NCBI RefSeq assembly: GCF_026013615.1
Contig: NZ_JAPDPI010000006.1
Location: forward strand, 62,001 to 126,000
Direction: 5' to 3'
Origin: Plebeiibacterium marinum
Lineage (GTDB): Bacteria; Bacteroidota; Bacteroidia; Bacteroidales; Marinilabiliaceae
Length of the DNA: 64,000 bases
A program made the translations under genes and the position numbers. The notes below the pieces were generated by a model. It was not told the origin of the DNA. It saw only the letters and a list, made by a program, of their open reading frames with translations, and searched no databases. This document shows positions 12,550-55,507 of this stretch, one piece after another. Every line of letters begins with the position of its first letter. The stretch's first letter is position 1.

Positions 12550-13266
12550 CTATTTTAAGAAGTTTTCATCCAAGAATTTTTGAAAAGTATCTTTATACTG
12601 ATCACTAATTGGTATATAAACTTTATCATCAAATATAATCCGGGCTCTTTCAATTGTGGTGATCTTTTTAAGGTTGACAATATAGGAACGGTGAACCCTC
12701 ATAAAATCATCGGCAGGCAAAAACTTTTCCATTTTTTTCATTCCCATTAAAGCCATTACAGGACTTTGATTTTCAAGGTGGATCCTCACATAATCCCTCA
12801 TCCCTTCGATGTACTTAATTAAGCGAAACTCTATTTTAACTATTTTGTACTCTGATTTTATAAAAAGGAACTGATCATTATTTTCAATGGTTTCCACCGC
12901 TTTCTTCGATGTAAAATACCTATCGCGAGTTTTATCTACCGATTTTAAGAAATCAGAATAACTAATAGGCTTTACCAGATAGTCAGCTGCGTCTACCTTA
13001 AAACCCTCGAATGCATATTCTCGATAGGCTGTAGTAAAAATCACCTTTGGAGGATTGGATAAGGACTCAACAAATTCCAGCCCGGTTAAATCAGGCATGT
13101 TAATATCCACAAACATCAAATCCACCGAATTATCCTGAAGAAATTCTAATGCTTTAATGGCGTTCGAAAACTTATCTACTAACTGCAGATAAGGAGTTTT
13201 TTCTATATATCCTTCTATTTGTCTTAAAGCCAATGGCTCATCATCAATGGCAATACATGTAATCAT
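12550..13266 (-). CDS. LytTR-family response regulator
   Basis: A 238-residue two-domain regulator. The receiver domain has DD at 8-9, the phosphoacceptor Asp54 in FVDINMP and the conserved Lys99 in DYLVKPI. The C-terminal LytTR DNA-binding domain is seen from about residue 140, ending with the RVHRSYIVNLKKI segment near 190. It overlaps the upstream sensor kinase by 4 bp (ATGA), so the two are translationally coupled. LytTR proteins bind pairs of direct repeats spaced two helical turns apart; sites of that geometry exist at 19438-19466, 25088-25116 and 25260-25288, though which regulator uses them is unknown. Confidence 0.95.
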   Translation of the reverse strand: MITCIAIDDEPLALRQIEGYIEKTPYLQLVDKFSNAIKALEFLQDNSVDLMFVDINMPDLTGLEFVESLSNPPKVIFTTAYREYAFEGFKVDAADYLVKPISYSDFLKSVDKTRDRYFTSKKAVETIENNDQFLFIKSEYKIVKIEFRLIKYIEGMRDYVRIHLENQSPVMALMGMKKMEKFLPADDFMRVHRSYIVNLKKITTIERARIIFDDKVYIPISDQYKDTFQKFLDENFLK

Positions 13267-14405
13267 AATGGTACATTTAAATTAACCGCAAATAAGTTTT
13301 CATCAGGCAATTTACCTATTTCCAGTTTGTAGTTATTTCCATATATCAAATCCAACCTGTTTTTTGTATTTTCCACTCCTACACCTGAGTTGCCGACGTT
13401 TCCTTTACGCTCATATATTTTATTAATAATATCAAAAACCATCCTCCCTTTGTCAAACGAAAAGGAAATGCGTATAAAACAATTTTCATTATAACTAATT
13501 CCATGCTTAAATGCATTTTCAATATATGAAATGGTTAACAATGGTGGTATATTAACTGCAGGAAGTTTATCAGGAACATCTAATATAATTTCAACAGTAT
13601 CTGTAAAACGGATTTTCATTAACTCAATATAGCTTTTTATAAAATCCATTTCCTTTTGCAAAGGTATTTTTTCAGTTTTTGATTCATAAAGCATATACCC
13701 CATCATCCTGGAAAGCTTAATTATGGACTCCTTAGCTTCTTCTGTATCTATATCTACCAATGCATGAATATTATTAAGGGTATTCATAAAAAAATGTGGA
13801 CTAATCTGATTTTGCAGAAACGCCATTTTATTTTCTATGTTTTCTTTTTCGAGCAAGGCTTTGTTTTTTTCTGATATGATCCATTTTTGAGAAAAAACCA
13901 GTCCGGTATCAAAACCCAAAATAAGAATTGACAATATCAGAATGTTAGCAAATGGAAAGGCAAAATTCCTATGCCCATCTTTTTCATGATGTAAAGGTGG
14001 CATAATTGATTTACCGTCAAAAACAGGTGGTTCCCTGTATTCAAGAGGGGGTCCTTGTTGCGGGATTTCCCTGCGCACTTCTTTAAAATGCTTAAAGTTT
14101 GAAGAACTAACCAAATATAACGTATAGCTCCCACAAAGAAAAACAAGTGCCAATGCCAATGCATAAAAAAGTCTTTTACCTTTAAACAACAGTTTTGGCA
14201 ACAGCAAAAAACGGTTAACTAAAAACATGACAAAAACCAATGCATGCTCTTTCCACATTTTAAATATAAGATCCCAGTTTGTTTTGTCCTCAAAATCACC
14301 TGCTAACACAGGAACCAGTATTACAAGTAGCCACATGCATACCACAATAACTAGTTGTACATTCCATGAGCGGTTTTTGATTTTCTTTTTTATTTTAAAT
14401 ATCAT
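13263..14405 (-). CDS. LytS-type sensor histidine kinase
   Basis: A 380-residue membrane kinase. Membrane segments are near residues 18-36, 50-66, 77-98 and 150-168, with a charged Pro-rich extracytoplasmic loop between the last two. The His_kinase domain has the phosphoacceptor in QISPHFFMN (about His203). The ATPase domain shows the N-box IENAFKHG and the G-box GVGVENTKNRL. It pairs with the LytTR regulator encoded directly downstream. The ligand is unknown. Confidence 0.93.
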   Translation of the reverse strand: MIFKIKKKIKNRSWNVQLVIVVCMWLLVILVPVLAGDFEDKTNWDLIFKMWKEHALVFVMFLVNRFLLLPKLLFKGKRLFYALALALVFLCGSYTLYLVSSSNFKHFKEVRREIPQQGPPLEYREPPVFDGKSIMPPLHHEKDGHRNFAFPFANILILSILILGFDTGLVFSQKWIISEKNKALLEKENIENKMAFLQNQISPHFFMNTLNNIHALVDIDTEEAKESIIKLSRMMGYMLYESKTEKIPLQKEMDFIKSYIELMKIRFTDTVEIILDVPDKLPAVNIPPLLTISYIENAFKHGISYNENCFIRISFSFDKGRMVFDIINKIYERKGNVGNSGVGVENTKNRLDLIYGNNYKLEIGKLPDENLFAVNLNVPL

Positions 14406-14450
14406 AACTGAATCTTATAGTCTAAACTTTGTTTGATGTATAAAAACCAA

Positions 14451-14475
14451 CACAATGCATTAAAAATGCATTGTG
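14451..14475 (-). terminator. 11-bp perfect inverted repeat after the VTC/beta-helix operon
   Basis: CACAATGCATT at 14451-14461 and AATGCATTGTG at 14465-14475 are exactly complementary with a 3-nt loop. On the minus strand a T-rich stretch (TTGGTTTTTATA) follows, so this is a likely terminator for the 18582-14521 operon. It also lies in the leader region of the sensor kinase gene and might serve as an operator. Confidence 0.6.
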
Positions 14476-14520
14476 AAGTATAATTTATAAAAACTCCGAA
14501 ATATATTAATGAAAATTGGA

Positions 14521-16314
14521 TTAATAAATACTGGTTACAATATTTGATATTGTAAATTCTGTATAAACCGATCCCGGAGTATAGTTTCCACCCTCGTACA
14601 AGCCATCTGTCTCTGTTCCGGTTGAACTTCCACCTGTATAAAGTTTATACTGTACTCCTTTTTCGAGTTTGGGTGATGAAAATACAATAGATTGAAACGA
14701 CTTGGCTGATTTATATGTAAAGATACCTTCGCCAGACTCATCCTCTATATGAAATACAGTTCTGGCTGACTGCGTATTCCTGAAATTGACTTTTACACTA
14801 TACTGCGACGATGACGAACCAGGTGCTTGAGCCATACCTGATGAACCAATAGCCAAAAGTGTACCACCACTAACCTCACAGGTACGGTCATAATCCAATG
14901 CCCCATTTCCATTTGAAGTTGGTCCATTAACCAAAACTGTACCACCTGTAATATAAATATTTCCGTTTGAATCCAATCCATCTCCACTAGCATTTACATA
15001 AACATAGGCCTCATTATTTATATTTAAAGCATACTCACTTTCTGTAACACTTGTACTTTTGCGTCCTCCAAAGCCCGAATCGCCTCCTGCCGAAACATTG
15101 ATACCATCATCACTGGATACCACGTTAATATTACCTCCATTTAAAGTGATACTACCAAGGGAACTTTCAAGTCCTTCATACGATTTTGTAATAAATATAT
15201 CGCCATCCTCAATATCCAAATCATAATCAGAATGAATACCATCATCACCGGAGGCTATTTCAAATACGCCGGCATATATTTTATGGAAACCATTAGAATG
15301 CATACCATCATCGGCAGCATTTATTGATAAAACGCCATCATAAACCAATGTGCTTACTCCTGATTTTATCCCTTTAGCAGATTCATCATATCCAAGAGAA
15401 GCACTGCTCCCTCCACCTGTGGTTATATTAATTTCTCCTCCAAAAACCAAAACATCTGTTTGGGCCTGGATACCATCCCCACCAGCTTCTATTTCAACCG
15501 TTCCACTTTCGATTGAAATATAACCTTTGGCCAGGCTGTTTTCATTATCTGACTTTATTCCATCTCCCTGCGAATTAATATTTATATCCCCTCCTTTTAT
15601 TATAAGATAATCCTTTCCCCGAATCCCATCATCAACTGAATTAACCGTTATATTACCATTACCAATAATCAACCCATCTTTACTTGTAATACCATCATTA
15701 TACTTCCCATTTACCACAAGGGCACCATTCCCATAAATAGATAAGTCACTCTTACTAAAAACTGCTGCATTAGCATCTTCTTCCGCAGAACTATAAGAAC
15801 TGCCATCTGTAATATAGTTTGTCGTTTCTTCAGCCAGAATTATTACAGTTTTTTCTGATTTTTGCACATAAAGCGCTGCATTGTTTGAACAAGTTATGTC
15901 AACGCTGTTTAGTATTAAACGAACAGTAGATTCATCCTCTGTATTTACTATAACCTGTCCGTTATCCAGATCTCCGGAAATATCATATGTACCTGCAGAA
16001 ATAATAGTTACCACACTACCATTAACTTCAGCTCCTTCCCCGGTTACTGTAATGGTACTCCCATTTAACACAATAGAATTTACATCGTTGATATCCCAGG
16101 TATAATCCGCCTCATCTTCATGCCCCTCCATATTTCCAAGATCATCCAATACCAGATTGCTATCATCTTCATCCTCGTCATCGTCATTATCAATATCATC
16201 ATCATCGTCAATTGATTCAATATTACCGCTTATTGAATCGGCATCTCTATGGCAACTATTTAAAACCAGGGCCAAAGCAATAATAAGGCCTATTAAAAAA
16301 TTATACTGTTTCAT
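14521..16314 (-). CDS. Cthe_2159-like right-handed beta-helix lipoprotein (carbohydrate-binding domain protein)
   Basis: A 597-residue exported protein. The N-terminus has a lipoprotein signal ending ALVLNSC with the Cys near residue 21, then an extremely acidic run of Asp/Glu at about 34-52. The rest repeats short strands such as DDGIRGKD, GDGIKSDN, DDGMHSNG and DDGIHSDY at roughly 20-25-residue intervals, the signature of the Cthe_2159/DUF4353 beta-helix. Cthe_2159 of Clostridium thermocellum is known to bind cellulose and polygalacturonic acid and calcium. Here it is predicted to sit on the outer membrane and bind an acidic polysaccharide or metal ions. It is the last gene of a four-gene operon with DUF2490, DUF4956 and VTC proteins. 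Confidence 0.85.
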   Translation of the reverse strand: MKQYNFLIGLIIALALVLNSCHRDADSISGNIESIDDDDDIDNDDDEDEDDSNLVLDDLGNMEGHEDEADYTWDINDVNSIVLNGSTITVTGEGAEVNGSVVTIISAGTYDISGDLDNGQVIVNTEDESTVRLILNSVDITCSNNAALYVQKSEKTVIILAEETTNYITDGSSYSSAEEDANAAVFSKSDLSIYGNGALVVNGKYNDGITSKDGLIIGNGNITVNSVDDGIRGKDYLIIKGGDININSQGDGIKSDNENSLAKGYISIESGTVEIEAGGDGIQAQTDVLVFGGEINITTGGGSSASLGYDESAKGIKSGVSTLVYDGVLSINAADDGMHSNGFHKIYAGVFEIASGDDGIHSDYDLDIEDGDIFITKSYEGLESSLGSITLNGGNINVVSSDDGINVSAGGDSGFGGRKSTSVTESEYALNINNEAYVYVNASGDGLDSNGNIYITGGTVLVNGPTSNGNGALDYDRTCEVSGGTLLAIGSSGMAQAPGSSSSQYSVKVNFRNTQSARTVFHIEDESGEGIFTYKSAKSFQSIVFSSPKLEKGVQYKLYTGGSSTGTETDGLYEGGNYTPGSVYTEFTISNIVTSIY

Positions 16315-16333
16315 AATTGTAGATTTTATTTTT

Positions 16334-16990
16334 TTAAAACTTTAGTTTATATCCTATACTAACTATGTGTTTGTTCAGATATTCATTGTTGTAATAATCA
16401 AACTTATAATCAATTCCCACAGAGTTCTTTTTAAATAACTTATAATCAAACCCTAAAGCAAAGCGATTTTTATACATTTCAGAATTTGAAAGCTGCTGAA
16501 ATACCTCCCAGGCTACAAAAGGAGTTACCTTACATTTTGGAATATCATATTTCAAGGAAAGTTTGTATCTCATAAAATCATTTTCCTCCCCATCATCATC
16601 CGAATAGTTGCTATAGCGCAAACGAAATGACGTCTCAAACTTTTTGATTTTCTTCTCCAGAGAAGCACCCAATGCATACCTGTTAAGATACTCGGTATCT
16701 TTAGTTTCGCGCTGATTGGCTATAAACCGGTAAGAACCGGAAAAAGTAAGCATTTTCATAGCTTTGTAACTTGCTTCTCCTTCAATCAACGATTTATCTA
16801 AGGCATAATTCTCGTCAAAACGAAATTCGGGAGTTATACTAAGCTTTACTCTCTTTACAGGTTTAAATGCAAGTTCAAACGCAGTACGTGTTTGATATTC
16901 ATTCTCTACATCCTGTGCAAAAGCAATCACATTAATGAATAGAATAGCTATTAAAAATAGCATCCTTATTTTTTTATGAACTTTATCCAT
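16334..16990 (-). CDS. DUF2490-like outer-membrane beta-barrel protein
   Basis: A 218-residue protein with a signal peptide ending VIAFAQ. The rest alternates polar and aromatic residues in about 8-10 strands (for example EFRFDENYA, FRLRYSNYS, YKLSLKYDI, GIDYKFDYY) and ends on IGYKLKF, a C-terminal aromatic typical of Bacteroidota outer-membrane barrels. It fits the DUF2490 family, of unknown function. It lies 32 bp downstream of the DUF4956 gene and 19 bp upstream of the beta-helix lipoprotein, so the four genes are probably one unit that links the cytoplasm to the outer membrane. Confidence 0.7.
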   Translation of the reverse strand: MDKVHKKIRMLFLIAILFINVIAFAQDVENEYQTRTAFELAFKPVKRVKLSITPEFRFDENYALDKSLIEGEASYKAMKMLTFSGSYRFIANQRETKDTEYLNRYALGASLEKKIKKFETSFRLRYSNYSDDDGEENDFMRYKLSLKYDIPKCKVTPFVAWEVFQQLSNSEMYKNRFALGFDYKLFKKNSVGIDYKFDYYNNEYLNKHIVSIGYKLKF

Positions 16991-17022
16991 TTGTTTCTAT
17001 AATTTAGTCTTAATACCCTGTT

Positions 17023-17739
17023 CTACTCAGATAACTTCTTATCTTTTCCATTTACATTAAAATACAGTATGATTTCGGCCACATCCTTTAAGAAGTCAAT
17101 CTTTTGTATTTCGTAACGCTTAATATTAATTCCGGTTCTTTCTTTAAGGTCAAAAAGCAGCTCTTCACTTTTTAGTGCATGGATGTTTTCAATCTTTTCA
17201 TAGATCAACCGTATAGAGCCTTCTTGTTTTAACATCAACCGTTTTTCAAGAATCCATAAGCCAAAAATGATTACCGAATTGGTTATTATTAATTCGGCAT
17301 AACTAACTTTTTTATTTGCCAGTGCGTTAATTACAGAAATACCAATAACAATAAACAAATAGGTCATTTCCTTTATAGGAATAGCATCTGTTCGGTAACG
17401 AATAATGCCGAAAATGGCAAAAAGGCCTAATGCAAAACCCAATTCAAGTTTTACACTATTGAGCAGGAAACTGAGCAAAAATACAATAACACCAATTGAT
17501 AGATAACTAAAATAAAAGTCCTTTCTTCTACTATTTTTGGCATACATAAAGTGCACCACTACAAATATCAATAGGGTATTGAATACAAAACGCACCAACA
17601 ATTCTGTAAAATCTACCACATTAATAACTTTTATGTCTAAAAACCGGAAGCCATCTTCCCAAAGTTCTAGTCTGGTTGGCACTGGCTGGTTTACAATGCT
17701 ATCTTGCAAACTACTTGTTATCAAATTAAATCCCTTCAT
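17023..17739 (-). CDS. DUF4956 membrane protein
   Basis: A 238-residue protein with about four membrane helices between residues 45 and 160. The segment GFALGLFAIFGIIRYRTDAI, followed by IKEMTYLF, is the conserved core of the DUF4956 family. The C-terminal 70 residues are cytoplasmic (IKRYEIQKIDFLKDV). Genes of this family are repeatedly found beside VTC-domain polyphosphate-polymerase-like genes, as here (81 bp upstream), but the biochemical role is not established. It may form a membrane channel or partner for the VTC protein. Confidence 0.85.
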   Translation of the reverse strand: MKGFNLITSSLQDSIVNQPVPTRLELWEDGFRFLDIKVINVVDFTELLVRFVFNTLLIFVVVHFMYAKNSRRKDFYFSYLSIGVIVFLLSFLLNSVKLELGFALGLFAIFGIIRYRTDAIPIKEMTYLFIVIGISVINALANKKVSYAELIITNSVIIFGLWILEKRLMLKQEGSIRLIYEKIENIHALKSEELLFDLKERTGINIKRYEIQKIDFLKDVAEIILYFNVNGKDKKLSE

Positions 17740-17820
17740 TTCTTATGGTTTTAAAGTTTAGAAATGCCTGGTTATTATTATTACCATTGGTATAAAACAC
17801 GACACTCCCAAATACTCCTG

Positions 17821-18582
17821 TTAATTATATAGATTATTAGCATTTAACACTTTCTCGATCTGCCTTACCTTTCCTTTAAAGGCATTCCTCTTTAAATCGT
17901 TATCTGTAACTGTTCTACCAATACAGTATTTGCTGAAACCTGACGTTTTTATTCGCTGCGAACGTAAAGCCTTTTGCAAAGGAGAGAGTTTTGACCGGCC
18001 ATCTGACTTAATTTCTACAATAACTAAGTTATTTAATACCACATTTGTGTCTTCACTTTTAAAACTCAGGTTCACATCTATAGTACACCGCTCTTTAAAG
18101 TTTTTATTAACCAGGGTAAGCCGGTAAAAATTGTTGGCAAGAGAACTTTGCAGATCGTGATGAGAGTATGGGGTACTTTCGTTTATAAAATCCTTGTCGC
18201 GATCAGAAAAACTATTGACCCCGAATTCTGAGGACACACGCTTTTTTATAGTCCGCCCTTTATTATTTTTGAATTTTACTTCAAAAAAACTTTTACCTGA
18301 TGAAACATAACTACGCCTTCTGATTTTATATCGATTTAACTTACCATTATGATGTGCTGTGTACATCTCGTTTTCTATAGTATCATAATACACAGTGGAA
18401 TATGGCAGTAAACTTTTACCATTAATATTTAGCAAATAATATTTATTGGCAACAGATTCAATTGTAGAGGAAAGCTGTTTCGAATGAAACCAGTATTTTT
18501 TGTCTATGCGGTTCATAAGCTTTACCTGATCCATATCTTCCAGGCCAATCGACTCAAATAAGTTAGTATTAAACGCTCCCAT
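17821..18582 (-). CDS. VTC-domain protein (polyphosphate polymerase-like)
   Basis: A 253-residue cytoplasmic protein of the triphosphate-tunnel (VTC/CYTH-related) type. Visible tunnel elements are RIDKKYWFHSKQL, YKIRRRSY, FFEVKFKNNKG, KKRVSSEF and the acidic strand LVIVEIKSDG, followed by SKYCIG near residue 222. These supply the basic and acidic residues lining the tunnel in yeast Vtc4, which makes polyphosphate from ATP. It is the first gene of the operon. Its substrate in bacteria of this kind is not proven, and polyphosphate or another phosphate polymer is inference. Confidence 0.87.
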   Translation of the reverse strand: MGAFNTNLFESIGLEDMDQVKLMNRIDKKYWFHSKQLSSTIESVANKYYLLNINGKSLLPYSTVYYDTIENEMYTAHHNGKLNRYKIRRRSYVSSGKSFFEVKFKNNKGRTIKKRVSSEFGVNSFSDRDKDFINESTPYSHHDLQSSLANNFYRLTLVNKNFKERCTIDVNLSFKSEDTNVVLNNLVIVEIKSDGRSKLSPLQKALRSQRIKTSGFSKYCIGRTVTDNDLKRNAFKGKVRQIEKVLNANNLYN

Positions 18583-18909
18583 GTATTTATAAATTGATTA
18601 TTAAAAGGCTAAGCATAACTTGCCTATACTATTTTTCCTGTATATTATCTGTAACCCATCGTTTGTTTACATGTTAAAAATATATGTATTGCTTGCGGTA
18701 AATAAACAGAATCGACAAATGAGAAGGTTTTATAGACAAACCCAAATATTTTACATATTTGGTTCAATTGGTAAAAATGCTCAGCGCATAAAAAAAGGTA
18801 GCTATAAAGCAAAAAACTACTATAGCTACCTTTTACAACATATTTAATTTAAACCTCTGTCCATATATTCTATTCAAAAAAAGGAGTTTTGCCTTATATA
18901 TAAAGCTTT
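18583..18909. other. Intergenic region with terminator
   Basis: 327 bp between the VTC operon start and the end of the Spy-like gene. Apart from the hairpin at 18791-18834 and a presumed VTC promoter that was not resolved, nothing coding is supported; a 75-codon plus-strand frame here overlaps the hairpin and is rejected. Confidence 0.5.
18791..18834 (-). terminator. Rho-independent terminator for the Spy-like gene
   Basis: AAAAGGTAGCTATA at 18793-18806 pairs perfectly with TATAGCTACCTTTT at 18821-18834 (14-nt loop). Read on the minus strand the stem runs into a T-run, as expected for a terminator of the gene at 18910-19317. Confidence 0.85.
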
Positions 18910-19317
18910 CTATCTCCTTGGAGGACCTTTTCTTTGGTGCTCTTTTAAAAATACATCATATTTAGCCATTTGTTCTTCTGACAAAACAGATTTAACTTTC
19001 TTTTCAAAATCTGATTTTTGTTGCTCCATATCCTCCCTTGATGGTCGCTCTCCTTCTTCCATTTGAGTTTTTACATCCTCAAAATGCGCCAAATATAATT
19101 CCTCTACCCTACTTGTCTGTTCTTCGTTTAAACCAACCTCTTCAGCAAGTTTACTAACCATTTCTTTAATTTCCTTTTGATCCGGAAATCGGGGTGGCCC
19201 ATGCTGTTCTCTATGCTGATCATCCCCTAATGGCTGCGCTTTTATATTTATACCAAATGCAGTAACAACTGCTAACATCAATAAATTCAATAATGTTTGT
19301 CTTGTTAATTTTATCAT
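18910..19317 (-). CDS. Spy/CpxP-like periplasmic protein
   Basis: A 135-residue exported protein: signal peptide to about residue 27, then a His/Pro/Arg-rich segment (HREQHGPPRFPDQ), then charged helices with LNEEQTSRVEEL and LSEEQMAKYDVF, each resembling the LTxxQ motif of the Spy/CpxP family. Such proteins are periplasmic chaperones or metal/stress sensors. The gene lies just downstream of the iron-sulfur operon and carries its own upstream 21-bp-spaced direct repeat (19438-19466), shared with that operon, so they are probably co-regulated. The His-rich segment could bind metal; that is inference. Confidence 0.7.
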   Translation of the reverse strand: MIKLTRQTLLNLLMLAVVTAFGINIKAQPLGDDQHREQHGPPRFPDQKEIKEMVSKLAEEVGLNEEQTSRVEELYLAHFEDVKTQMEEGERPSREDMEQQKSDFEKKVKSVLSEEQMAKYDVFLKEHQRKGPPRR

Positions 19318-19437
19318 AATGACGAATTTAAAATTAGATTTTAATATTGTACAAATGCGTAATTGACTACATTAAAATATTGTTTTATTATTACGCTATA
19401 CAAACATAGGGTTGTACAAACTATTATTTAAATCCAA

Positions 19438-19466
19438 TCGACAAACGGAATAAATCTATCGACAAA
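19438..19466 (-). promoter_or_regulatory. Direct-repeat operator TTTGTCGA-N13-TTTGTCGA (site 1)
   Basis: On the minus strand TTTGTCGA occurs at 19466-19459 and again at 19445-19438, start-to-start distance 21 bp, or two helical turns. It lies 121 bp upstream of the Spy-like gene start. The downstream half is embedded in GTTTGTCGATTGGATTTA, 18 bp identical to site 2 at 25088-25116. This geometry matches LytTR-type operators. Confidence 0.65.
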
Positions 19467-19473
19467 AACCTGA

Positions 19474-20493
19474 TTAAACAATCATTCCCGACAGGTAAGA
19501 AAACAACACGATCACCAAATAAACTGTAAGAACCAAAACTGTGGTTAATCTCTTTCCTAAAAACTTAAACAGCATAATAATCGATGTGGTGCAAATAGCA
19601 GTAGCAGAAAGGGAAAACCCAATAGACACGCCTAAACCTAAATCAGTAAACCTGAGAAGTGGAGCCAGAAATAAAACATCTGCCCCATTGCACATATAAA
19701 TAAATGTGCCTATCAGTGTAAAAATAAGCAGCGATACAAAATGATCATTAAGTGGCAATTGCTCTATCACTTTTAAAGGCCCGGAAATTTCAAGTATTAA
19801 ACCTAAAAAGCCGGCAATAAAAACATACGGTGCAATTTCAAAAACCATTTTCCATGTTTTCATATACACATCCTCTCCCCTTATAGCACTACACACTTTT
19901 GGGCGACAACTGTTATATACACCAATTGCATTATTTCCCATTTTCTTATGGGCAATCTCCATAACAATACCTGTAATTATAGAAACAACAAAGGCGCCCA
20001 AAATCCTTAATACACCATATTTAAATCCTATAACTGAAAATGACAGATAGATTACATATGGATTTAAGATAGGCGCTGACATAACAAAACTTATAATAGT
20101 GCGCATTTTCAAACGCCGTTTCATCGACTCTATTAATGGGATGGCACTACAAGAGCAAACAGGTATTAACGAAGCATAAAAAAAGGCCGTCACCTGATTT
20201 TGGGGAATAAGCTTTTTATATCGTTTAAAATATTTTTCTGTAACACTACCCGCAAAGGCTCCTGCTATTACAACCATAAACAATTCAAATAGATATTCAT
20301 AAGTCATAAACAACCACCTGGGCATAAATTTATAAATAACACACTTTTCCCTGGTTTGGAGGTTTATACCATACCAGGTAGAATAGATTGTATCAGCCAC
20401 CAAAACCAATAATACAAACCAAATAGCCAATTTACCTATATTGATATCACTATTTTGTTTCTTTGAAACACTTGCTATATTACCACTTATCAT
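19474..20493 (-). CDS. YraQ/DUF318-family permease
   Basis: A 339-residue integral membrane protein with about eight helices. The motif SLIPVCSCSAIPLIESMKRR near residue 113 is the Cys-Ser-Cys-containing signature of the YraQ/UPF0718 permease family, with the second repeat marked by NGADVLFLAPLL near residue 270. Relatives include the ArsP methylarsenite exporter and the SO_0444-type metal efflux proteins, so a soft metal, metalloid or sulfur compound is a plausible substrate, but this cannot be read directly. It is the last gene of the iron-sulfur operon, 37 bp after the 129-residue secreted protein. Confidence 0.82.
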   Translation of the reverse strand: MISGNIASVSKKQNSDINIGKLAIWFVLLVLVADTIYSTWYGINLQTREKCVIYKFMPRWLFMTYEYLFELFMVVIAGAFAGSVTEKYFKRYKKLIPQNQVTAFFYASLIPVCSCSAIPLIESMKRRLKMRTIISFVMSAPILNPYVIYLSFSVIGFKYGVLRILGAFVVSIITGIVMEIAHKKMGNNAIGVYNSCRPKVCSAIRGEDVYMKTWKMVFEIAPYVFIAGFLGLILEISGPLKVIEQLPLNDHFVSLLIFTLIGTFIYMCNGADVLFLAPLLRFTDLGLGVSIGFSLSATAICTTSIIMLFKFLGKRLTTVLVLTVYLVIVLFSYLSGMIV

Positions 20494-20530
20494 TCTATAA
20501 GTATTTAAAAAATCACTTTGCAGGCTTTAA

Positions 20531-20920
20531 TCATTTGCTTTTAAAAACCGCTGTTTCAACAACTTCACCTTTATCTGTTTTGCGATAAGCAGTAAGCTGA
20601 ACAGAGCCGCTCTTCTTCGCTTTTAAACCAAGGCAAACTTGTCTATGCCATTCCGAAGCCGATGTTTGTTTCCAGAGTCCTTTTTCCAGGATATTTAAAC
20701 CTTTTACATAGAGTTTAACCTTATGAACACCCTCTGCACAATACTTTCCTTTTTGAATTACAATCAATGTGCATTTTAATACATCACCTACCACATAACC
20801 ATCCTTTACACCTTCCGAAAACTCAAATTTCAGTGTAATATTATCGGGAGTCACAGCATAGCAATTCAACTCATTAACAAATACAAATGCCATCAACAAG
20901 CTCAAAACAATCCGCCACAT
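20531..20920 (-). CDS. Small secreted protein, Ig-like, unknown function (paralogue of 24625-25011)
   Basis: A 129-residue protein with a signal peptide ending near residue 22. The mature part is beta-rich with Cys residues in VLKCTL, KYCAEG and RQVCLGL. Aligned by eye with the first protein of the operon (24625-25011) it shares the pattern Y-x-x-G-D-x-L, a Cys about 17 residues later, a K-x-K strand and a Trp-Lys/Glu pair, so the two look like paralogues, perhaps periplasmic Ig-like domains. No family was recognised. It lies between the ten-motif ferredoxin (22 bp) and the permease (37 bp). Confidence 0.6.
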   Translation of the reverse strand: MWRIVLSLLMAFVFVNELNCYAVTPDNITLKFEFSEGVKDGYVVGDVLKCTLIVIQKGKYCAEGVHKVKLYVKGLNILEKGLWKQTSASEWHRQVCLGLKAKKSGSVQLTAYRKTDKGEVVETAVFKSK

Positions 20921-20942
20921 TCTATTCTTTATAACAGTTATA

Positions 20943-21968
20943 TCACCCTCTACTTATAGCTCCATAAGTACATACCTCTTCACATTTACCACATAACATA
21001 CAATTAGTAGTATTAATATTTGCAGGCTCAAAATCTACATTTATAGCTGCCTGAACATCGCATTCCACAACACAATCGCCACAAGAAGTACAAACACTAT
21101 TATCAATGCTTGGATTTATAGCTGTTTCTTCATTCACTATTATTGCATCATCATTACAAACATTAAAACAATCACCACATTCGGTACACTTATCCTGGGA
21201 TATATAGGCTACCAATTCACTAGTAGTGCCTGATGACGATTTTAATACGGCATTCTCAGTACATACGCTATAGCATTCTCCACAACTTGTACATGATGCT
21301 GCATCAATTTTTACATAGGCATTAGATATGGCATTATGCCTGCATGCTGATAAACATTTACCACACTTTTTACATTTACTCGTATTAATACTGGCCTTAC
21401 CATTTACAGAAGAAATTGCTCCATAACTACAAACTGAAGAACAATGAGAAGTACAACCATGACATCTTGAAGTATTCACGCTATAGCTGGAAACAACATA
21501 TGAAATAGCCTTACCTTCATTTTCACATTGACTGATACAATCACCACATCCAACACAATTGCTTGCCGAAATAGAATATGAATTTGTTTGTATTGATGAA
21601 GGCGTGATGGTTATTGCTTGCTCAGGACAAGCCGTTTCGCACTCTTCACAGGCAGAACAATTATCTTTGTCAATGGTATATGATATTCCGGGAATGGTTA
21701 TTGCGTTTACATCGCAAACATTTAAGCACGATTTACATTCATCACATTTATCAATATCGATGCTGTATTCAGCTAAACTATCCAGCTCTATAGCAGAATA
21801 ATAACAAACATCAAGACAATCTCCACAAGCTGTGCAACGAGATCGGTCGACTGAAAACTGATGATTGGAGATATCTGAGCATGATTGAAAAACATGTGTA
21901 CTTAAACCATATCCTGCAACAAACAATAATGTTTTTTTTATAAACTTTCTTCTGTTCGATTTATCCAT
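20943..21968 (-). CDS. Exported polyferredoxin with ten [4Fe-4S] motifs
   Basis: A 341-residue protein whose N-terminus NRRKFIKK plus a hydrophobic stretch resembles a twin-arginine signal, the route for folded cofactor proteins; VFQSC near residue 30 may be a weak lipobox. From residue 45 to the end there are ten CxxCxxCxxxC-type motifs (RCTACGDC, KCDECKSC, NCSACEEC, NCVGCGDC, RCHGCTSHC, KCKKCGKC, SCTSCGEC, KCTECGDC, VCTSCGDC, NCMLCGKC), at about 26-33-residue spacing, so up to ten clusters in five ferredoxin-like units. The fifth motif has an extra residue (CTSHC). Such a chain could act as an electron wire in the periplasm. Its neighbours are a membrane ferredoxin and an outer-membrane barrel. 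Confidence 0.85.
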   Translation of the reverse strand: MDKSNRRKFIKKTLLFVAGYGLSTHVFQSCSDISNHQFSVDRSRCTACGDCLDVCYYSAIELDSLAEYSIDIDKCDECKSCLNVCDVNAITIPGISYTIDKDNCSACEECETACPEQAITITPSSIQTNSYSISASNCVGCGDCISQCENEGKAISYVVSSYSVNTSRCHGCTSHCSSVCSYGAISSVNGKASINTSKCKKCGKCLSACRHNAISNAYVKIDAASCTSCGECYSVCTENAVLKSSSGTTSELVAYISQDKCTECGDCFNVCNDDAIIVNEETAINPSIDNSVCTSCGDCVVECDVQAAINVDFEPANINTTNCMLCGKCEEVCTYGAISRG

Positions 21969-21980
21969 CTTGTATATTTT

Positions 21981-23288
21981 TTAAAAGAAAACCCTCAACT
22001 CCAAACGGGCAAGTTTGGCATATTCTTCCATATTATCAGACTTCATTAACCCAGATAAAACAGTTGTTCGCAGCTTCTTATTAAAAAAGTATTTCCCAAC
22101 AGACATATCAAATTCGTGCATATGTTTGCCTTTTATCTGGCGTGAATATTGTATTTTAAGACTTAACTTCTTATCTACAATTTGATGTTTAGCTATTAGA
22201 TTCACCAAGGGCATGTCTACTACATCCATTCTAAAAACCTCACCTAAAAACAAATTTGAAAAACGAGGACTAGCCAGTGCGCCATCATCCAGATCAAGTT
22301 TTCCAATATACCCCAAATGAAGTGTGGATAAATTTCCTGTTTGCCACTCTATCACTTTTTCTGCATCAACTGAATACAAAACCGCACTATTCTCTTTAAC
22401 TCCCTGGTACACTGTCTGTACAGACAAGAGGGCATTATTGAACAGTAAGAAATTGGCATGAAGTCCCAGATATATATCCGGGTTATCATAATACCCCCCA
22501 AATTCTGAATAAATTACCCCACCATATGATTCGAGAGAAGGATAGGTAGCTTGAGAGACACTTTCAAAATCGTTAAACTCATCATATTCATTATCACTTG
22601 CTGATTCCTTTTCTCCTTTAGCCTTTTCAAAAGAAACAAATGCAAAATTGGTATCTCCAAAACTATTGCCTAAAGGTTGATTCCGAACAGGGGTTATATC
22701 ATAAAGAAAACAATTTGCACAAAAACTGCCATTTCTGGCAACATCTTTTGTTACTGAAGCCATAGCCCCTGAAAACCGATATAATCCGGACTCCTTGTTA
22801 AAACTTACCCCCCAGCCTCTCTCATTCAACAAAAAGGAATTTGGCAACTTAACCTGTTGTAATCCAATGCCAAGACTAAAATCCGGGGTAAAATAATTAT
22901 AAGATACTTCACGAAGGCCTGTTTTCCATTTTGAAAAGTTTATATTAAGATCGTAATCATATTTATTCCAGGCCTTTATTCCCCCTTCAAAATAAAACTG
23001 ATGGTTGTTATGCGAGTAATCCAATCCCAAAAATGCCATTCCATTTGAAATATTAGTATTTGATAAGTAGCCGGATGAACCAACTATTTCTCCAGCCCAG
23101 TTTATTGCTGACGTAGCGTATACTGGTTTCAGATGTCCTGACAAATTACTTCTACACTCCCATTGTGCAAAAACCATCATATTGAGTAATAACATGACTC
23201 CAAGCAATACAATTCTTAACCTTATAGTTGTCATTACCTTTGATAAAAGACCTTTCTTTTTTGCCATATTTATTAAATCTACTTTCAT
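21981..23288 (-). CDS. Outer-membrane beta-barrel protein of the iron-sulfur operon
   Basis: A 435-residue protein with a signal peptide (MTTIRLRIVLLG onward, cleaved after MVFAQ) preceded by a basic extension. The mature part has many amphipathic strands (FYFEGGIKAW, LGIGLQQVKL, LKIQYSRQIK) and ends LARLELRVFF, the aromatic C-terminus of outer-membrane barrels. A loop contains CANC, plus an early Cys after the signal. Its start overlaps the end of the NapH/NosR-like gene by 4 bp and the polyferredoxin gene starts 12 bp after it, so the three are made together. It may be a porin that houses or docks the ferredoxin; this is inference by analogy with porin-cytochrome conduits. An ATG nearer the signal peptide may be used. 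Confidence 0.72.
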   Translation of the reverse strand: MKVDLINMAKKKGLLSKVMTTIRLRIVLLGVMLLLNMMVFAQWECRSNLSGHLKPVYATSAINWAGEIVGSSGYLSNTNISNGMAFLGLDYSHNNHQFYFEGGIKAWNKYDYDLNINFSKWKTGLREVSYNYFTPDFSLGIGLQQVKLPNSFLLNERGWGVSFNKESGLYRFSGAMASVTKDVARNGSFCANCFLYDITPVRNQPLGNSFGDTNFAFVSFEKAKGEKESASDNEYDEFNDFESVSQATYPSLESYGGVIYSEFGGYYDNPDIYLGLHANFLLFNNALLSVQTVYQGVKENSAVLYSVDAEKVIEWQTGNLSTLHLGYIGKLDLDDGALASPRFSNLFLGEVFRMDVVDMPLVNLIAKHQIVDKKLSLKIQYSRQIKGKHMHEFDMSVGKYFFNKKLRTTVLSGLMKSDNMEEYAKLARLELRVFF

Positions 23289-24628
23289 TTGTTGATTGCC
23301 TTAAATGAGCATACATCCAAACAGTCGCCGCACTGAATACACTCCTCATTAATCACAAAGCGTTTATTAACATTCGACACAGCCCCGTAAGCACAGTCTT
23401 TTTCGCAGCGGCTGCAAGACTTGCAATTTTGATTCACAGTTAGTTTATATGCACCTGGAATTCTTGAAACCCATCCAAGGATCAACCCTACCGGACATAA
23501 GGTTTTACAAAATGGACGATAAATAAATAGCGAACTCAACAGTAAAATGCCGAGAAGTATATAACCTGTAACATTGGAAGAAAACAAGTTAAACACTACC
23601 CTAAATGGATCAATTTTTATATACAAATTGGTTCTGGTAAACACTATTTGCATTACCAATGCAATGATTGCTACCACCCTTATAACTTTTAAAACCTTTT
23701 GCACTTGAGGTTTCAAGCCTTTCTTTGCTCTTTTACTCCTATATATGAATTCCTGAAGTGCCCCAAGGTGACATACCCAGCCACACCATATTTTTCCAAA
23801 AAAATAAGTAAGAAGCAAAAGCCCAAATATCCAAATTAAGTTTAGCCTATTTACACTATCACCTAACAGCAACAATATGAGGTTTTGAAAGCTGGATATC
23901 ATACAAGGACACCCTCCACTAATAAACCCCAAATAAACTAATGAACTTAAAAGCAATAAAGAACGAATGGCATATATTCTTTTATAGCGGAACAGCAAAC
24001 CGGCGAAAAAGGTGGCCATCAATGCTATGCATGTTCTCAATAAATTATGTTTATCCCCTTCTGAAAAACCTCCTTCAACTGTAGGGCTAACTCCTTCATC
24101 AAAGGTTTCAAATTCTTCCAGCTCTGAAAAATCATCAATTTCTGAAGCGTTTTTTAATGATAAATCTGTATCCACTTCATATAAAGAAGTTACTATGCTA
24201 TCATTGTCACGAATGGTTACATAGTTAGAATCACTTGTAGTAACAAACTCACCAGTACCATAAAAATCCTCACCTCTATAATCAGATTCCTGTGCTACTT
24301 TGAATATTATTCCTGCAAACAACAATACGCCCAGAACCCAAAAAAGAATAATCTTCCTCTTTCTTTTAAATACCAATAAAATAATTATAGCTATAGAAAT
24401 TAATACAAAAGGGAATTCATTAAATGGTAAAGAAAACAACATTCCTTCTCCGGAACATTCATTGCAGTTACTACACATATAACTTGACTCAGCATCACCC
24501 ACTGCATCATTAATTATCAACTCTTCAGTCAAGGGTTCAAACACATCTTTTTGCCCAAAAGAAATTATACTCACGAACAATATCCCAAGTATAACCCATA
24601 ACCGTATTATCCATCCCATGTTTATCAC
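23285..24628 (-). CDS. NapH/NosR-like polytopic membrane ferredoxin
   Basis: A 447-residue membrane protein. It opens with a signal or anchor helix, then CSNCNEC near residue 54, membrane helices near 70-112, a long acidic extracytoplasmic segment, then further helices with CGWVCHLGAL near residue 281 and CKTLCPVGLILG near 373, the paired CxxxC motifs of the NapH/NosR/RdxA family. Two [4Fe-4S] motifs close the protein (CKSCSRCEKDC and CIQCGDCLDVC). These proteins pass electrons between the quinone pool and periplasmic iron-sulfur or other redox partners. It overlaps its upstream neighbour and its downstream neighbour by 4 bp each. Confidence 0.85.
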   Translation of the reverse strand: MINMGWIIRLWVILGILFVSIISFGQKDVFEPLTEELIINDAVGDAESSYMCSNCNECSGEGMLFSLPFNEFPFVLISIAIIILLVFKRKRKIILFWVLGVLLFAGIIFKVAQESDYRGEDFYGTGEFVTTSDSNYVTIRDNDSIVTSLYEVDTDLSLKNASEIDDFSELEEFETFDEGVSPTVEGGFSEGDKHNLLRTCIALMATFFAGLLFRYKRIYAIRSLLLLSSLVYLGFISGGCPCMISSFQNLILLLLGDSVNRLNLIWIFGLLLLTYFFGKIWCGWVCHLGALQEFIYRSKRAKKGLKPQVQKVLKVIRVVAIIALVMQIVFTRTNLYIKIDPFRVVFNLFSSNVTGYILLGILLLSSLFIYRPFCKTLCPVGLILGWVSRIPGAYKLTVNQNCKSCSRCEKDCAYGAVSNVNKRFVINEECIQCGDCLDVCSFKAINK

Positions 24629-25011
24629 CCTTTTTTCAGAGTTATTTTAGCTACCCCTCCTTCTTTTTCACAAACCCGCTGACAAATAATTTCTATGTCA
24701 TTTTTATTATCATTCGTAACCTCAATTTTCAATTTTCTACTGTAAGTATTAGGTTGTTTTTTCTCCCATTTTGTTGCACCCACAATTTTTGCCCCAATTG
24801 CTTTAAACTTTGTTTTTGTTATGTCAACATGACAATTTCTATGATTTAAAATAACAGAAACTTCAACAACAAGCTCATCTCCTATACGATAGCTTTCTTT
24901 CTTAAATTGATCACTAACTTTTAGATCAATCTCACAAGCCATACCTAGGGTGGTAAACAAAAATAAAAACGTAAGGAGTCCGGATCTAACAACAGATTTT
25001 TTATTCATCAC
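24625..25011 (-). CDS. Small secreted Cys-containing protein, unknown function; first gene of the iron-sulfur operon
   Basis: A 128-residue protein with a signal peptide ending LGMA, so the mature chain begins at or next to a Cys (CEIDL). The rest is beta-rich and holds Cys in HRNCHVD and in a closing pair CQRVCEKEGG. It looks paralogous to the protein at 20531-20920 (shared Y-R-I-G-D type turn, central Cys, Lys-rich strand, Trp). No domain family was recognised. The 4-bp overlap with the membrane ferredoxin gene implies translational coupling and a linked function. Two adjacent ATG codons are possible starts. Confidence 0.62.
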   Translation of the reverse strand: MMNKKSVVRSGLLTFLFLFTTLGMACEIDLKVSDQFKKESYRIGDELVVEVSVILNHRNCHVDITKTKFKAIGAKIVGATKWEKKQPNTYSRKLKIEVTNDNKNDIEIICQRVCEKEGGVAKITLKKG

Positions 25012-25087
25012 AAAATATTATTGTATTTATTATATGTTTTTACAGTTTAACGAAACTAATTACAATCCACATTAACCATAAATCCAA

Positions 25088-25116
25088 TCGACAAACAATC
25101 CTATTTTATCGGCAAA
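25088..25116 (-). promoter_or_regulatory. Direct-repeat operator TTTGCCGA-N13-TTTGTCGA (site 2)
   Basis: On the minus strand TTTGCCGA at 25116-25109 is followed by TTTGTCGA at 25095-25088, start-to-start 21 bp. It sits 77 bp upstream of the first gene of the iron-sulfur operon and shares an 18-bp identical stretch with site 1. Confidence 0.65.
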
Positions 25117-53650: not shown

Positions 53651-53702
53651 AATAAGAGTGATATTTAATATCCAAGCTATTTTCCTTTTATATTTGTTAG
53701 CT

Positions 53703-54806
53703 ATGGCTAACAACAAAAACATAAAATCCATCGGCCGCCAAATGCTTGCAGACGGCATTGCCGTTTTAAGTGCCTTTCCTATCTGGGAAATTATTTATTG
53801 GATCATAGCATCTTTATTTATGTTTTTTGTTTTTAGTAACAGGCATTATGATATTCAGATACGCACTAATGTATCCATATTGCTATTACTGATTAGTTTT
53901 GCAAGCGCCAGAATCATCAATAAAGTCTTAATTCCAAAGTTCTTATTTAAAGGTAAAACAGGGTTATTTATATACTCTATCTTTTTTTTAATTATTATTT
54001 CGTCATGGCTCATAAGCATTGCGCTCTTTTTAATTACTTTTTATAGCAACATTGCTTTTGAAAATACCATTTTACCTTCCAGGGAAGATGTTATCATTCT
54101 TTTAACCGGTACCTATATCATTGCACTAGTATCATCAATGTTTTATTTTACAAGAGAATCTTATCAATCAAAAGAAGAAAAACTAATTATTGAGAAGGAA
54201 AAGAATCAGCTTGAATTAAAATTCAAAGAAGTACAGTTACAATTACTTAAAGAACAAATTCACCCGCATTTTATCTTTAACATGATGAATAACCTTTATG
54301 CTCTGGTAAATGTAAGCACTGCACTTTCAAGAGAAGTTATTGTACGCTTATCGGACTTACTGGAATATATGCTTTATAAATGCAACACGGAAAAGGTAGC
54401 ATTAAGCAAAGAAATAGAATTCATCAACAACTATATTGAACTTGAAAAAATACGGCACGATGATAGTTTTAACGTAAGAACCGATTTCCCCGAGGATTTA
54501 ACCGGGATTAAAATTGCTCCATTGGTGTTATTCCCGTTTGTTGAAAATGCTTTTAAGCACGGACTAAAACAAACCAATAACGATTTTATTACAATGCAAC
54601 TAATGGTTACTGCAACCAAAATACAATTTAATATAAATAACTACATACATAATATTAAAGTTTCTGAGGCTAAAACTAAAAAGAGTAATGGTTTAGGACT
54701 TAAAAATGTACGCGAAAGACTTGAGCTATTGTATTTGAACAGATATGATTTGCAAATATCAACAAACAACAACATTTTTGACGTTAAATTAAAGATTATA
54801 CGATAA
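53703..54806 (+). CDS. LytS-type sensor histidine kinase
   Basis: A 367-residue membrane kinase from ATG 53703; a GTG at 53658 would add 15 hydrophobic residues and cannot be ruled out. About four membrane helices cover residues 20-160. The phosphoacceptor lies in QIHPHFIFN near residue 187, and the ATPase N- and G-boxes read VENAFKHG and GLGLKNVRERL. It pairs with the LytTR regulator that starts one base into its stop codon. Confidence 0.92.
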   Translation: MANNKNIKSIGRQMLADGIAVLSAFPIWEIIYWIIASLFMFFVFSNRHYDIQIRTNVSILLLLISFASARIINKVLIPKFLFKGKTGLFIYSIFFLIIISSWLISIALFLITFYSNIAFENTILPSREDVIILLTGTYIIALVSSMFYFTRESYQSKEEKLIIEKEKNQLELKFKEVQLQLLKEQIHPHFIFNMMNNLYALVNVSTALSREVIVRLSDLLEYMLYKCNTEKVALSKEIEFINNYIELEKIRHDDSFNVRTDFPEDLTGIKIAPLVLFPFVENAFKHGLKQTNNDFITMQLMVTATKIQFNINNYIHNIKVSEAKTKKSNGLGLKNVRERLELLYLNRYDLQISTNNNIFDVKLKIIR

Positions 54807-55507
54807 TGCCCCATAAAAACAAATATACGTGCCTGATTATTGACGATGAACCATTGGCTATAAAAGTAATAAAAGAACATCTTGATAATTTCAGTGATCA
54901 GTTTGAGTGTGTTGGAATGTATACAAAGCCTATTGAGGCTATGTCTGTTTTAAACAAAGGAGGTGTTGATCTATTATTTTTAGATATTAATATGCCATCC
55001 ATATCTGGAATTGAATTTTTAAAAGCCCTCCCCCATCAGCCTTACGTAATATTCACTACTGCCTACAGGGAATTTGCTGTTGATGCTTTTGACCTTAATG
55101 CGCTTGATTACCTTGTTAAACCTATTTCAACCGGAAGGTTTTTAAAGGGTATCAATAAGTTTCTTGCATTGGAACAATCACAACAGACCAGGACAAAAGA
55201 TATTATTCACATTAAAGCAGATAAAAAGCATTATAACATTCCTGCGGAAACCATACTTTATATCGAAGGTTTAGATAATTACATTAAAGTTAAAACAACA
55301 ACGAGCAATCTCATTTGCTACGAATCACTATCAGGTATGGAGAAGGAATTATCATCAGATATATTTTTACGCATCCACCGTTCTTTCATTATTAATATCA
55401 ATCAAATTGAACACTACACATCGTCATATATTAAAATAGATGAGCGACAATTTACTATAGGCAGAAATTACAAAGAACAAGTACTAAACTATCTTGAAAG
55501 ACAATAA
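54806..55507 (+). CDS. LytTR-family response regulator
   Basis: A 233-residue regulator. The receiver has DD at 13-14, Asp60 in FLDINMP and Lys105 in DYLVKPI. The LytTR domain occupies roughly residues 130-233 (KADKKHYNI, ETILYIEGLDNYIKV, LRIHRSFIININQI). ATGA overlap by one base (54806) couples it to the kinase. It is the second LytTR protein of the window and could serve the direct-repeat operators near the iron-sulfur operon, but so could the first. Confidence 0.94.
   Translation: MPHKNKYTCLIIDDEPLAIKVIKEHLDNFSDQFECVGMYTKPIEAMSVLNKGGVDLLFLDINMPSISGIEFLKALPHQPYVIFTTAYREFAVDAFDLNALDYLVKPISTGRFLKGINKFLALEQSQQTRTKDIIHIKADKKHYNIPAETILYIEGLDNYIKVKTTTSNLICYESLSGMEKELSSDIFLRIHRSFIININQIEHYTSSYIKIDERQFTIGRNYKEQVLNYLERQ

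Follow-up and report, generated by a model that had tools for sequence, protein, structure and literature searches.

We analysed a stretch of 64,000 nt from Plebeiibacterium marinum (contig NZ_JAPDPI010000006.1, positions 62,001 to 126,000 of the forward strand; hereafter the window) and studied a six-gene iron-sulfur operon on its minus strand (19474-25011). Stated most safely, the operon encodes an electron-export module of the NapGH kind together with a dedicated outer-membrane-type barrel to which it is tied. This gene set is a conserved module that recurs in divergent form, not a local oddity, and no paper describing it was found among open-access papers. As to its function, the explanation that we favour, which is plausible if just short of probable, is an envelope redox module in which a NapGH-type electron exporter is coupled to a dedicated outer-membrane pore and the polyferredoxin reduces a small substrate in the periplasm.

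The open reading frame (ORF) listing contained all six genes given in a preliminary description of the operon, at the same coordinates and in the same order. On the minus strand, these are ig1, encoding a small exported immunoglobulin (Ig)-like protein of 128 aa with three conserved cysteines (gene 1, 24625..25011); a NapH-like membrane protein of 447 aa (gene 2, 23285..24628); the barrel, 435 aa, with 18 predicted strands, an acidic linker and the conserved cysteines C45 and C190 (gene 3, 21981..23288); the polyferredoxin, a putative lipoprotein of 341 aa exported by the twin-arginine (Tat) route (gene 4, 20943..21968); Ig2, a paralogue of Ig1 with 129 aa that is paired with the permease (gene 5, 20531..20920); and an ArsP_1/YraQ-family permease of 339 aa (gene 6, 19474..20493). 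A Pfam scan gave nothing above cut-off for genes 1, 3 and 5. The first three genes had been described as overlapping by 4 bp, and both overlaps are present in the genes as called (24625-24628 and 23285-23288). The start of gene 2 could lie later, however, at its fourth codon, an ATG that aligned with a methionine in 59 of 60 NapH-like rows; with this start, the first overlap vanishes. A defence system was also considered and discarded, as none of the five proteins scanned with PADLOC (all but the polyferredoxin) gave a match.

Gene 2 is, judged by its sequence, a relative of NapH and not a curated NapH, in line with its earlier designation as a NapH/NosR-like membrane ferredoxin. It matched Fer4_5 with 60.3 bits (Pfam cut-off 22) in addition to ferredoxin domains, and scored 68.1 bits against the TIGR02163 NapH/MauN model, below the cut-off of 213.05. 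The motifs of the NapH-like protein are an N-terminal CxxC, an acidic linker, GGCPC, CGWxCH, CxxxCP and a C-terminal 2x[4Fe-4S] domain. Twelve cysteines of gene 2 coincided with those of E. coli NapH in the alignment, the two CxxxC motifs and the C-terminal 2x[4Fe-4S] domain being common to both. The two proteins differ in the first of these motifs, which is CSWVCP in E. coli NapH and CGWxCH here, and in the acidic linker and CPC, both of which E. coli NapH lacks. Based on hydrophobicity, positive-inside reasoning and natural NapH-barrel ORFs in two loci, the exported N-terminus, the linker and GGCPC would be periplasmic, and the C-terminal 2x[4Fe-4S] domain cytoplasmic. In these two loci (L025:1792-4392 and L027:1785-4568), one ORF encodes both the NapH-like protein and the barrel, with what appears to be an internal signal peptide past the ferredoxin domain. 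As in NapH, this domain would then remain cytoplasmic; the product is perhaps a precursor that is cut after export.

The barrel, likewise anticipated in the preliminary description, was borne out by structure prediction. AlphaFold2 on 26 barrel sequences returned 18 strands (mean predicted local distance difference test (pLDDT) score 84.2, predicted template modelling score 0.78; 243 of 435 residues at a pLDDT of 90 or more). The top Foldseek match was OpdO of the OprD (Occ) porins, with a query template modelling (TM) score of 0.48, and AlgE reached 0.52-0.58, at 9-12% identity. By sequence, no PDB chain matched below E 0.2 and no Pfam family matched, PF11854 included, so that homology with AlgE and OprD is seen only at the level of the fold. 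While the barrel fold is shared with these porins, the acidic linker, the conserved cysteines (C45 invariant and C190 nearly so among the 26 barrels) and the link to a redox operon set the protein apart. When strands were counted with the N-terminus placed in the periplasm, the two longest of the remaining loops came after odd strands, as expected for the outside, and the turns after even strands were short except after strand 8, where the acidic linker is found. Because strand 8 is even, the linker (about residues 224-250) would lie on the periplasmic side of the modelled barrel. The charge of the lumen, examined for signs of a polyferredoxin inside, averaged about 12 positive against 12 to 13 negative residues; for several strands, the in/out phase is doubtful. 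A distant barrel paralogue at L008:1495-2685 (L134:8127-9317) lacks the acidic linker and has no NapH-like or ferredoxin neighbours; its divergent neighbour resembles by eye the start of a LytS-type kinase.

The acidic linkers of the barrel and the NapH-like protein share the motif [DEN]EF, which in the latter follows the exported N-terminal region and precedes the core. The 63 NapH-like proteins had a density of 7.0 motifs per 1000 aa and the 41 barrels one of 6.9, compared with 0.71 in 570 other ORFs and 0.53 in 57 Ig proteins, and it was absent from 29 ferredoxins and 14 permease ORFs (the tallies include a few fragments). Across 37 loci, the counts in the NapH-like protein and its barrel partner showed a weak correlation (Spearman 0.43, p 0.009; kinship and fragments uncorrected).

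Gene 4 had been called a ten-motif polyferredoxin. Pfam indeed found ten Fer4_6 stretches, although a regular expression gave only nine CxxCxxC motifs, the tenth being a variant, CHGCTSHCSSVC, recognised by eye. The protein starts with RR followed by a lipobox-like cysteine (RRKF...FQS-C) and thus looks, by these signals, like a Tat-exported lipoprotein. In a set of 30 ferredoxins, which excludes that of L027, an A/S/G-Cys lipobox-like site preceded the first motif in 29, and RR was present in 25, including every one of the 23 that have at least four motifs. The regular expression counted 2 (seven proteins), 4, 7, 9, 11, 13, 15, 19 and 21 motifs; the four-motif protein (L018) is shorter than its relatives and encoded near a contig end. 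Ten long polyferredoxins that were aligned have in common a conserved element at their centre (around residues 155-180) that is non-canonical. The residues following the lipid cysteine gave no clear surface-export signal in the 30 ferredoxins: 12 had at least two acidic residues between +2 and +6, and the polyferredoxin of the window has one. For Capnocytophaga, PMC5080379 gives the minimal surface-export signal (LES) as K-(D/E)2 or Q-A-(D/E)2. Two polyferredoxins with 21 and 15 motifs (L132:4368-6539 and L133:2454-4028) come from genomes in which the barrel is on another contig. In a further locus, a 280-aa protein is encoded between the barrel and a two-motif ferredoxin (L047:7045-7887); it is lipoprotein-like, with Ig-like repeats seen by eye and a two-motif ferredoxin end.

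Together, genes 2 and 4 resemble NapGH in the polytopic NapH-type protein with its CxxxC motifs and C-terminal 2x[4Fe-4S] domain and in the Tat-exported polyferredoxin partner (Tat by sequence signal). They differ from it in that the ferredoxin is a lipoprotein with 2-21 motifs and that a barrel and an Ig-like protein are part of the unit. NapH and a Tat-exported polyferredoxin are known both as a pair and as a fusion, the MLMS-1 NapH-NapG fusion polyferredoxin (PMC5449189).

To follow the module across genomes, we used barrel- and ferredoxin-centred samples of the order, which are independent of NapH patterns. The barrel profile matched 20 of 393 genomes, belonging to 18 of 206 genera. Besides the window's own genome, a NapH-like gene was adjacent to the barrel in 17 of 19 and elsewhere in the other two (G536, G637). 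A polyferredoxin profile (E<=1e-20) searched against 393 genomes of the order, the same draw as far as the listed rows show, found nine genomes, and all nine were among the 20 with a barrel (hypergeometric 5.9e-12 for 8 others among 19 of 392; kinship uncorrected). The polyferredoxin did not adjoin the barrel in G816 and G536, the latter having its barrel (C138), NapH-like gene (C42) and 15-motif polyferredoxin (C287) on three contigs.

A scan of named genomes with the NapH-like alignment, filtered on WCGW[VL]CH and CPC[MP]I[SM]SF, yielded 53 loci. These were mostly from Bacteroidota, with others assigned by title to Ignavibacteria, Zixibacteria, KSB1, Acidobacteria, Myxococcota, Deltaproteobacteria, Cloacimonadota, Krumholzibacteria, Kapaibacterium and Neomarinimicrobiota. 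Sufficient downstream sequence (at least 1.5 kb) was available for 45 loci, and the barrel adjoined the NapH-like gene in 27 of them. Where 2.2 kb lay downstream of the barrel, a ferredoxin gene was found in 22 of 25 loci (including L027, where it is masked by an opposite-strand ORF; L012, L027 and L037 were the loci rechecked for such genes). Synteny thus extends beyond close relatives, with barrel plus ferredoxin also in loci from Zixibacteria, KSB1 and Ignavibacteriota. We further traced 25 of the 29 scan loci without a local ferredoxin to their genomes. In this second set, the barrel was present in six of 25 and the polyferredoxin in two (G853, G863), both times beside the barrel. Within these samples, the modules nest: the NapH-like protein is the most widespread, then the barrel, then the polyferredoxin.

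Closer to home, the barrel was present in five of 71 genomes of the family, the window's own included. The other four barrels were 27-40% identical to it, and three of these genomes kept the NapH-barrel-polyferredoxin order; the fourth, G035, has the distant paralogue of L008, in a different gene context. At genus level, two of nine genomes had the barrel. In the NapH-like tree, the protein of the window grouped with Prolixibacteraceae rows, and that of Labilibacter sediminis (L019, the same proteins as G049) with a Saprospiraceae row. The sparse occurrence in the genus and the distance between these two proteins in the tree suggest that the module moves horizontally or is lost often. A phylum-wide draw of 392 genomes gave only the own genome and one 19.9-bit match with the barrel profile, which is why the order was sampled instead.

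In the barrel genomes of the order, the CPC motif of the NapH-like protein co-occurred with the ferredoxin. Seven barrel genomes lack the CPC pair (G509, G513, G535, G543, G630, G655 and G837), reading GGPG in six cases and GGCPG in G535; E. coli NapH is CPC-less too. None of the seven contained a long polyferredoxin by profile search, which a two-motif ferredoxin elsewhere could escape, and six of them were also covered, with no match, by a separate polyferredoxin search. Of the 11 barrel genomes with CPC or CTGC, 10 have a ferredoxin, the exception being G637, which is 73% complete. Among these 10, two have the two-motif kind and two encode the ferredoxin away from the barrel. The NapH-like genes of G487 and G711 are truncated. 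In four CPC-less loci (L096, L098, L099 and L100), a TetR-type gene, checked by Pfam in one of them, lies just upstream of ig1.

The operon had initially been proposed to form a porin-type extracellular electron conduit with iron-sulfur clusters in place of haem. All porin-type extracellular electron conduits known to us use haem. None of the six translations contains CxxCH, so the operon encodes no multihaem cytochrome. The family and order searches had together given 24 barrel genomes, and all of these except G035 and G543 were searched for two common multihaem families. Among the 22, PF09699 occurred in five, PF13435 in nine and neither in 11; the window's genome did not match PF09699 and matched PF13435 once, weakly. 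The module is therefore independent of these two families. Two loci may be a haem counterpart of the module: at L040:2105-4572 and L045:107-2552, Ig1 and the NapH-like protein are encoded near another predicted barrel, a small lipoprotein with one CxxCH and a protein sorted by the type IX secretion system (T9SS). Pfam assigned the L040 barrel to DUF5777 and the T9SS protein to DUF2271; in L045, the barrel was recognised by its like position and translation. A DUF2271/T9SS protein is also encoded directly upstream of the module in L020.

A cytochrome-free conduit, with all or part of the polyferredoxin running through the barrel or capping it and handing electrons to acceptors beyond the cell, would account for the restriction of the polyferredoxin to barrel genomes (9/9 in the order, 2/2 in the second set), for up to 21 motifs in one protein and for the 11 of 22 genomes with neither multihaem family, and the possible haem version in L040 and L045 would fit as well. 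Other observations speak against it. The barrel has 18 strands and is AlgE/OprD-like, and some genomes retain a barrel although searches showed no long polyferredoxin in them. With two motifs each, seven of the 30 ferredoxins would be too short for a membrane-spanning wire. The ferredoxins show no clear signal for surface export, and no surface redox partner was recognised among the six genes. The comparison with MtrCAB and other porin-cytochrome conduits is similarly divided: in both cases a redox chain is encoded with an outer-membrane-type barrel, but the module here has iron-sulfur clusters instead of haem, 18 instead of 26 strands and a barrel that also occurs without the redox chain. Strict MtrAB homology was rejected on the basis of strand number and fold; PMC7198977 gives 26 strands for the MtrB barrel. 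Overall, we consider the conduit unlikely, and marginally more so in its specific form as a haem-free path across the outer membrane, with the polyferredoxin in or under the barrel, electrons running outward from the NapH-type exporter and the cluster number tuned by repeat duplication (2 to 21 motifs). The porin-like fold, the barrels without a long polyferredoxin, the two-motif versions, the lack of a clear surface signal and the 14 loci with a permease cassette make us lean towards a pore for a periplasmically reduced substrate over a wire to the outside. The alternative named in the preliminary description, a redox system acting on a compound that passes through the membrane proteins, is at least as good a fit as the conduit.

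That cassette consists of Ig2 and the permease. The permease matched ArsP_1 (PF03773) with 95.7 bits (cut-off 32.3), confirming the YraQ-type assignment, and scored far below the cut-offs of the SaoE and SO_0444 models; it shares the ArsP_1/YraQ family with these permeases and differs in being paired with Ig2. Genes 1 and 5 are paralogues, as had been noted, and one profile recovers both. In Ig1, C60 and C114 were invariant and C26 nearly so among 36 sequences, whereas Ig2 has lost most of these conserved cysteines. The AlphaFold2 model of Ig1 is a beta sandwich (pLDDT 89.9) that gave only generic Ig-fold matches (best E 7.1e-4). Of the 49 loci with sufficient sequence on the upstream side, 35 have ig1 immediately ahead of the NapH-like gene (including L012 and L037, where ig1 is masked by opposite-strand ORFs). 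Ig2 lies beside arsP in all 13 arsP loci of the 53-locus set and in the window, and all 14 permease loci also carry barrel and ferredoxin.

These proteins could instead handle a metal or metalloid, with Ig1, the CPC of the NapH-like protein and the barrel cysteines binding and reducing a thiophilic metal ion that leaves via permease and barrel, which we take to resemble CcoG/CcoH-type metal reduction with an ArsP-type exporter. The three conserved cysteines of Ig1, the conserved cysteines of the barrel, the permease in 14 loci and the presence of both CPC cysteines in 53 of 60 NapH-like rows (most of them selected by the CPC motif) are consistent with this, as is the neighbouring Spy/CpxP-like gene, which the same promoter site precedes. 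The permease, however, is present in only 13 of the 53 loci of the scan, nothing points to a particular metal, the SaoE and SO_0444 scores are far below their cut-offs, and long polyferredoxins would go unexplained. We regard metal handling as improbable, on a par with the specific form of the conduit. Less probable again, indeed rather far-fetched, is redox-controlled gating or assembly of the barrel, where the NapH-like protein and Ig1 would set the redox state of the barrel cysteines and the ferredoxin would act as an electron buffer. The conservation of C45 and C190 and the persistence of barrel and NapH-like protein without a long polyferredoxin would suit such a role, but up to 21 motifs seem excessive for one disulfide, and the barrel persists alongside CPC-less proteins, so it does not require the supposed outlet.

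In the envelope redox module that we favour, the NapH-like protein would take electrons from the quinol pool or from cytosolic ferredoxin. The electrons would cross the inner membrane to a periplasmic CPC outlet, joined in the window and part of its relatives by an extra CxxC; the role of CPC as outlet is suggested by the topology and by the joint absence of CPC and polyferredoxin. The lipid-anchored polyferredoxin, as the counterpart of NapG, would collect the electrons and carry them toward the outer membrane. There, the barrel would be tied to the inner-membrane protein, or to a common partner, through the matching acidic DEF linkers. The direction of electron flow and this docking are what we infer from the arrangement of the parts. 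The 18-stranded barrel would admit or release a small, redox-active substrate, to be reduced by the polyferredoxin in the periplasm; from the ArsP relatives, we guess that this substrate might be a metal, metalloid or sulfur compound. Ig1 would be a frequent thiol- or metal-handling accessory, and Ig2 with the ArsP-family permease an optional cassette for transporting a substrate or product through the inner membrane. In favour of this explanation are the NapH-like gene in all 19 other barrel genomes, the confinement of the polyferredoxin to barrel genomes, which in G536 holds even with the three genes on separate contigs, the link between CPC and ferredoxin, the [DEN]EF enrichment in both partners, the porin-like 18-strand model with its linker after an even strand, the constant company of permease, Ig2, barrel and ferredoxin, and the known pairing of NapH with a Tat-exported polyferredoxin.

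Several observations weigh against this explanation. The NapH score of gene 2 is far under the curated cut-off, and the fold match of the barrel is moderate. Barrel and NapH-like protein occur without a long polyferredoxin in the seven CPC-less genomes. Furthermore, four of the six barrel genomes of the second set (L031, L034, L021 and L033) showed no long polyferredoxin in spite of their CPC, which is thus no guarantee of it, with short ferredoxins and incomplete assemblies as possible reasons. An adjoining barrel was missing in 18 of the 45 NapH-like loci with enough downstream sequence, and G035 (L008) has its distant barrel without the module, its best NapH-like match reaching only 121 bits. 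Co-occurrence partly reflects shared descent. Similarly, the contrast between CPC-less and CPC-bearing proteins may go back to one event, a gain or a loss, because the CPC-less rows adjoin in the tree: six form a weakly supported group with L096 beside it, and E. coli NapH joins there on a very long branch.

Around the operon, a tandem site, TTTGCCGAT-12 nt-TTTGTCGATTGGATTTA, was found upstream of gene 1 and hence of the whole operon (25079..25116, minus strand). A second site, TTTGTCGAT-12 nt-TTTGTCGATTGGATTTA (19429..19466, minus), precedes a gene for a small exported protein that is Spy/CpxP-like by eye and perhaps co-regulated (18910..19317, minus; DUF4890 19.6 bits, below the cut-off of 29.7). 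A third, weaker site with three mismatches (18708..18740, minus; C154:80708-80740) lies upstream of a cluster of VTC domain, DUF4956, DUF2490 and Cthe_2159 genes (14521..18582, minus). The consensus TTTG[TC]CGAT-12 nt-TTTGTCGATTGG had two exact core matches in the window, compared with a mean of 0.12 in shuffles, 1 of 100 of which reached two. With three mismatches allowed, the genome contained four tandem matches, three of them in the 12550-25116 region, and the reversed control two, so the third site is weak on its own. LytTR regulators typically have direct repeats with a spacing of about 21 nt as their sites. A histidine kinase (His_kinase, LytS type) with a LytTR response regulator, found after the site had pointed to LytTR, sits at the end of the VTC cluster (12550..14405, minus) and is the candidate regulator of the three sites. 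This arrangement suggests that the iron-sulfur operon, the Spy/CpxP-like gene and the VTC-DUF4956-DUF2490-Cthe_2159 cluster may be one local regulon (12550-25116). The window contains a second histidine kinase/LytTR pair at 53658-55507.

Other electron-transfer genes were seen next to the module in a few relatives. In two Prolixibacteraceae, nqr-like genes lie directly ahead of the module (L010:86-3372 and L011:1436-7380); the gene next to the module in L010 is NqrF-like by Pfam, and gene sizes in both loci suggest a whole nqr operon. Rnf-like genes seem, by eye, to adjoin in L097 and L100.

A conserved set of this kind, which Bacteroidota share with several uncultured phyla, would take NapGH-type electron export further, toward the outer membrane. 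Whether iron-sulfur proteins carry respiratory electrons to the cell surface is testable in Labilibacter sediminis, Mangrovibacterium lignilyticum, Draconibacterium aestuarii and Bacteroides reticulotermitis, and the co-occurrence of CPC and ferredoxin, together with the paired DEF linkers, points to residues for mutation. In the small group of bacteria that possess it, the module looks like an uncharacterised, haem-free way to spend electrons at the outer membrane.

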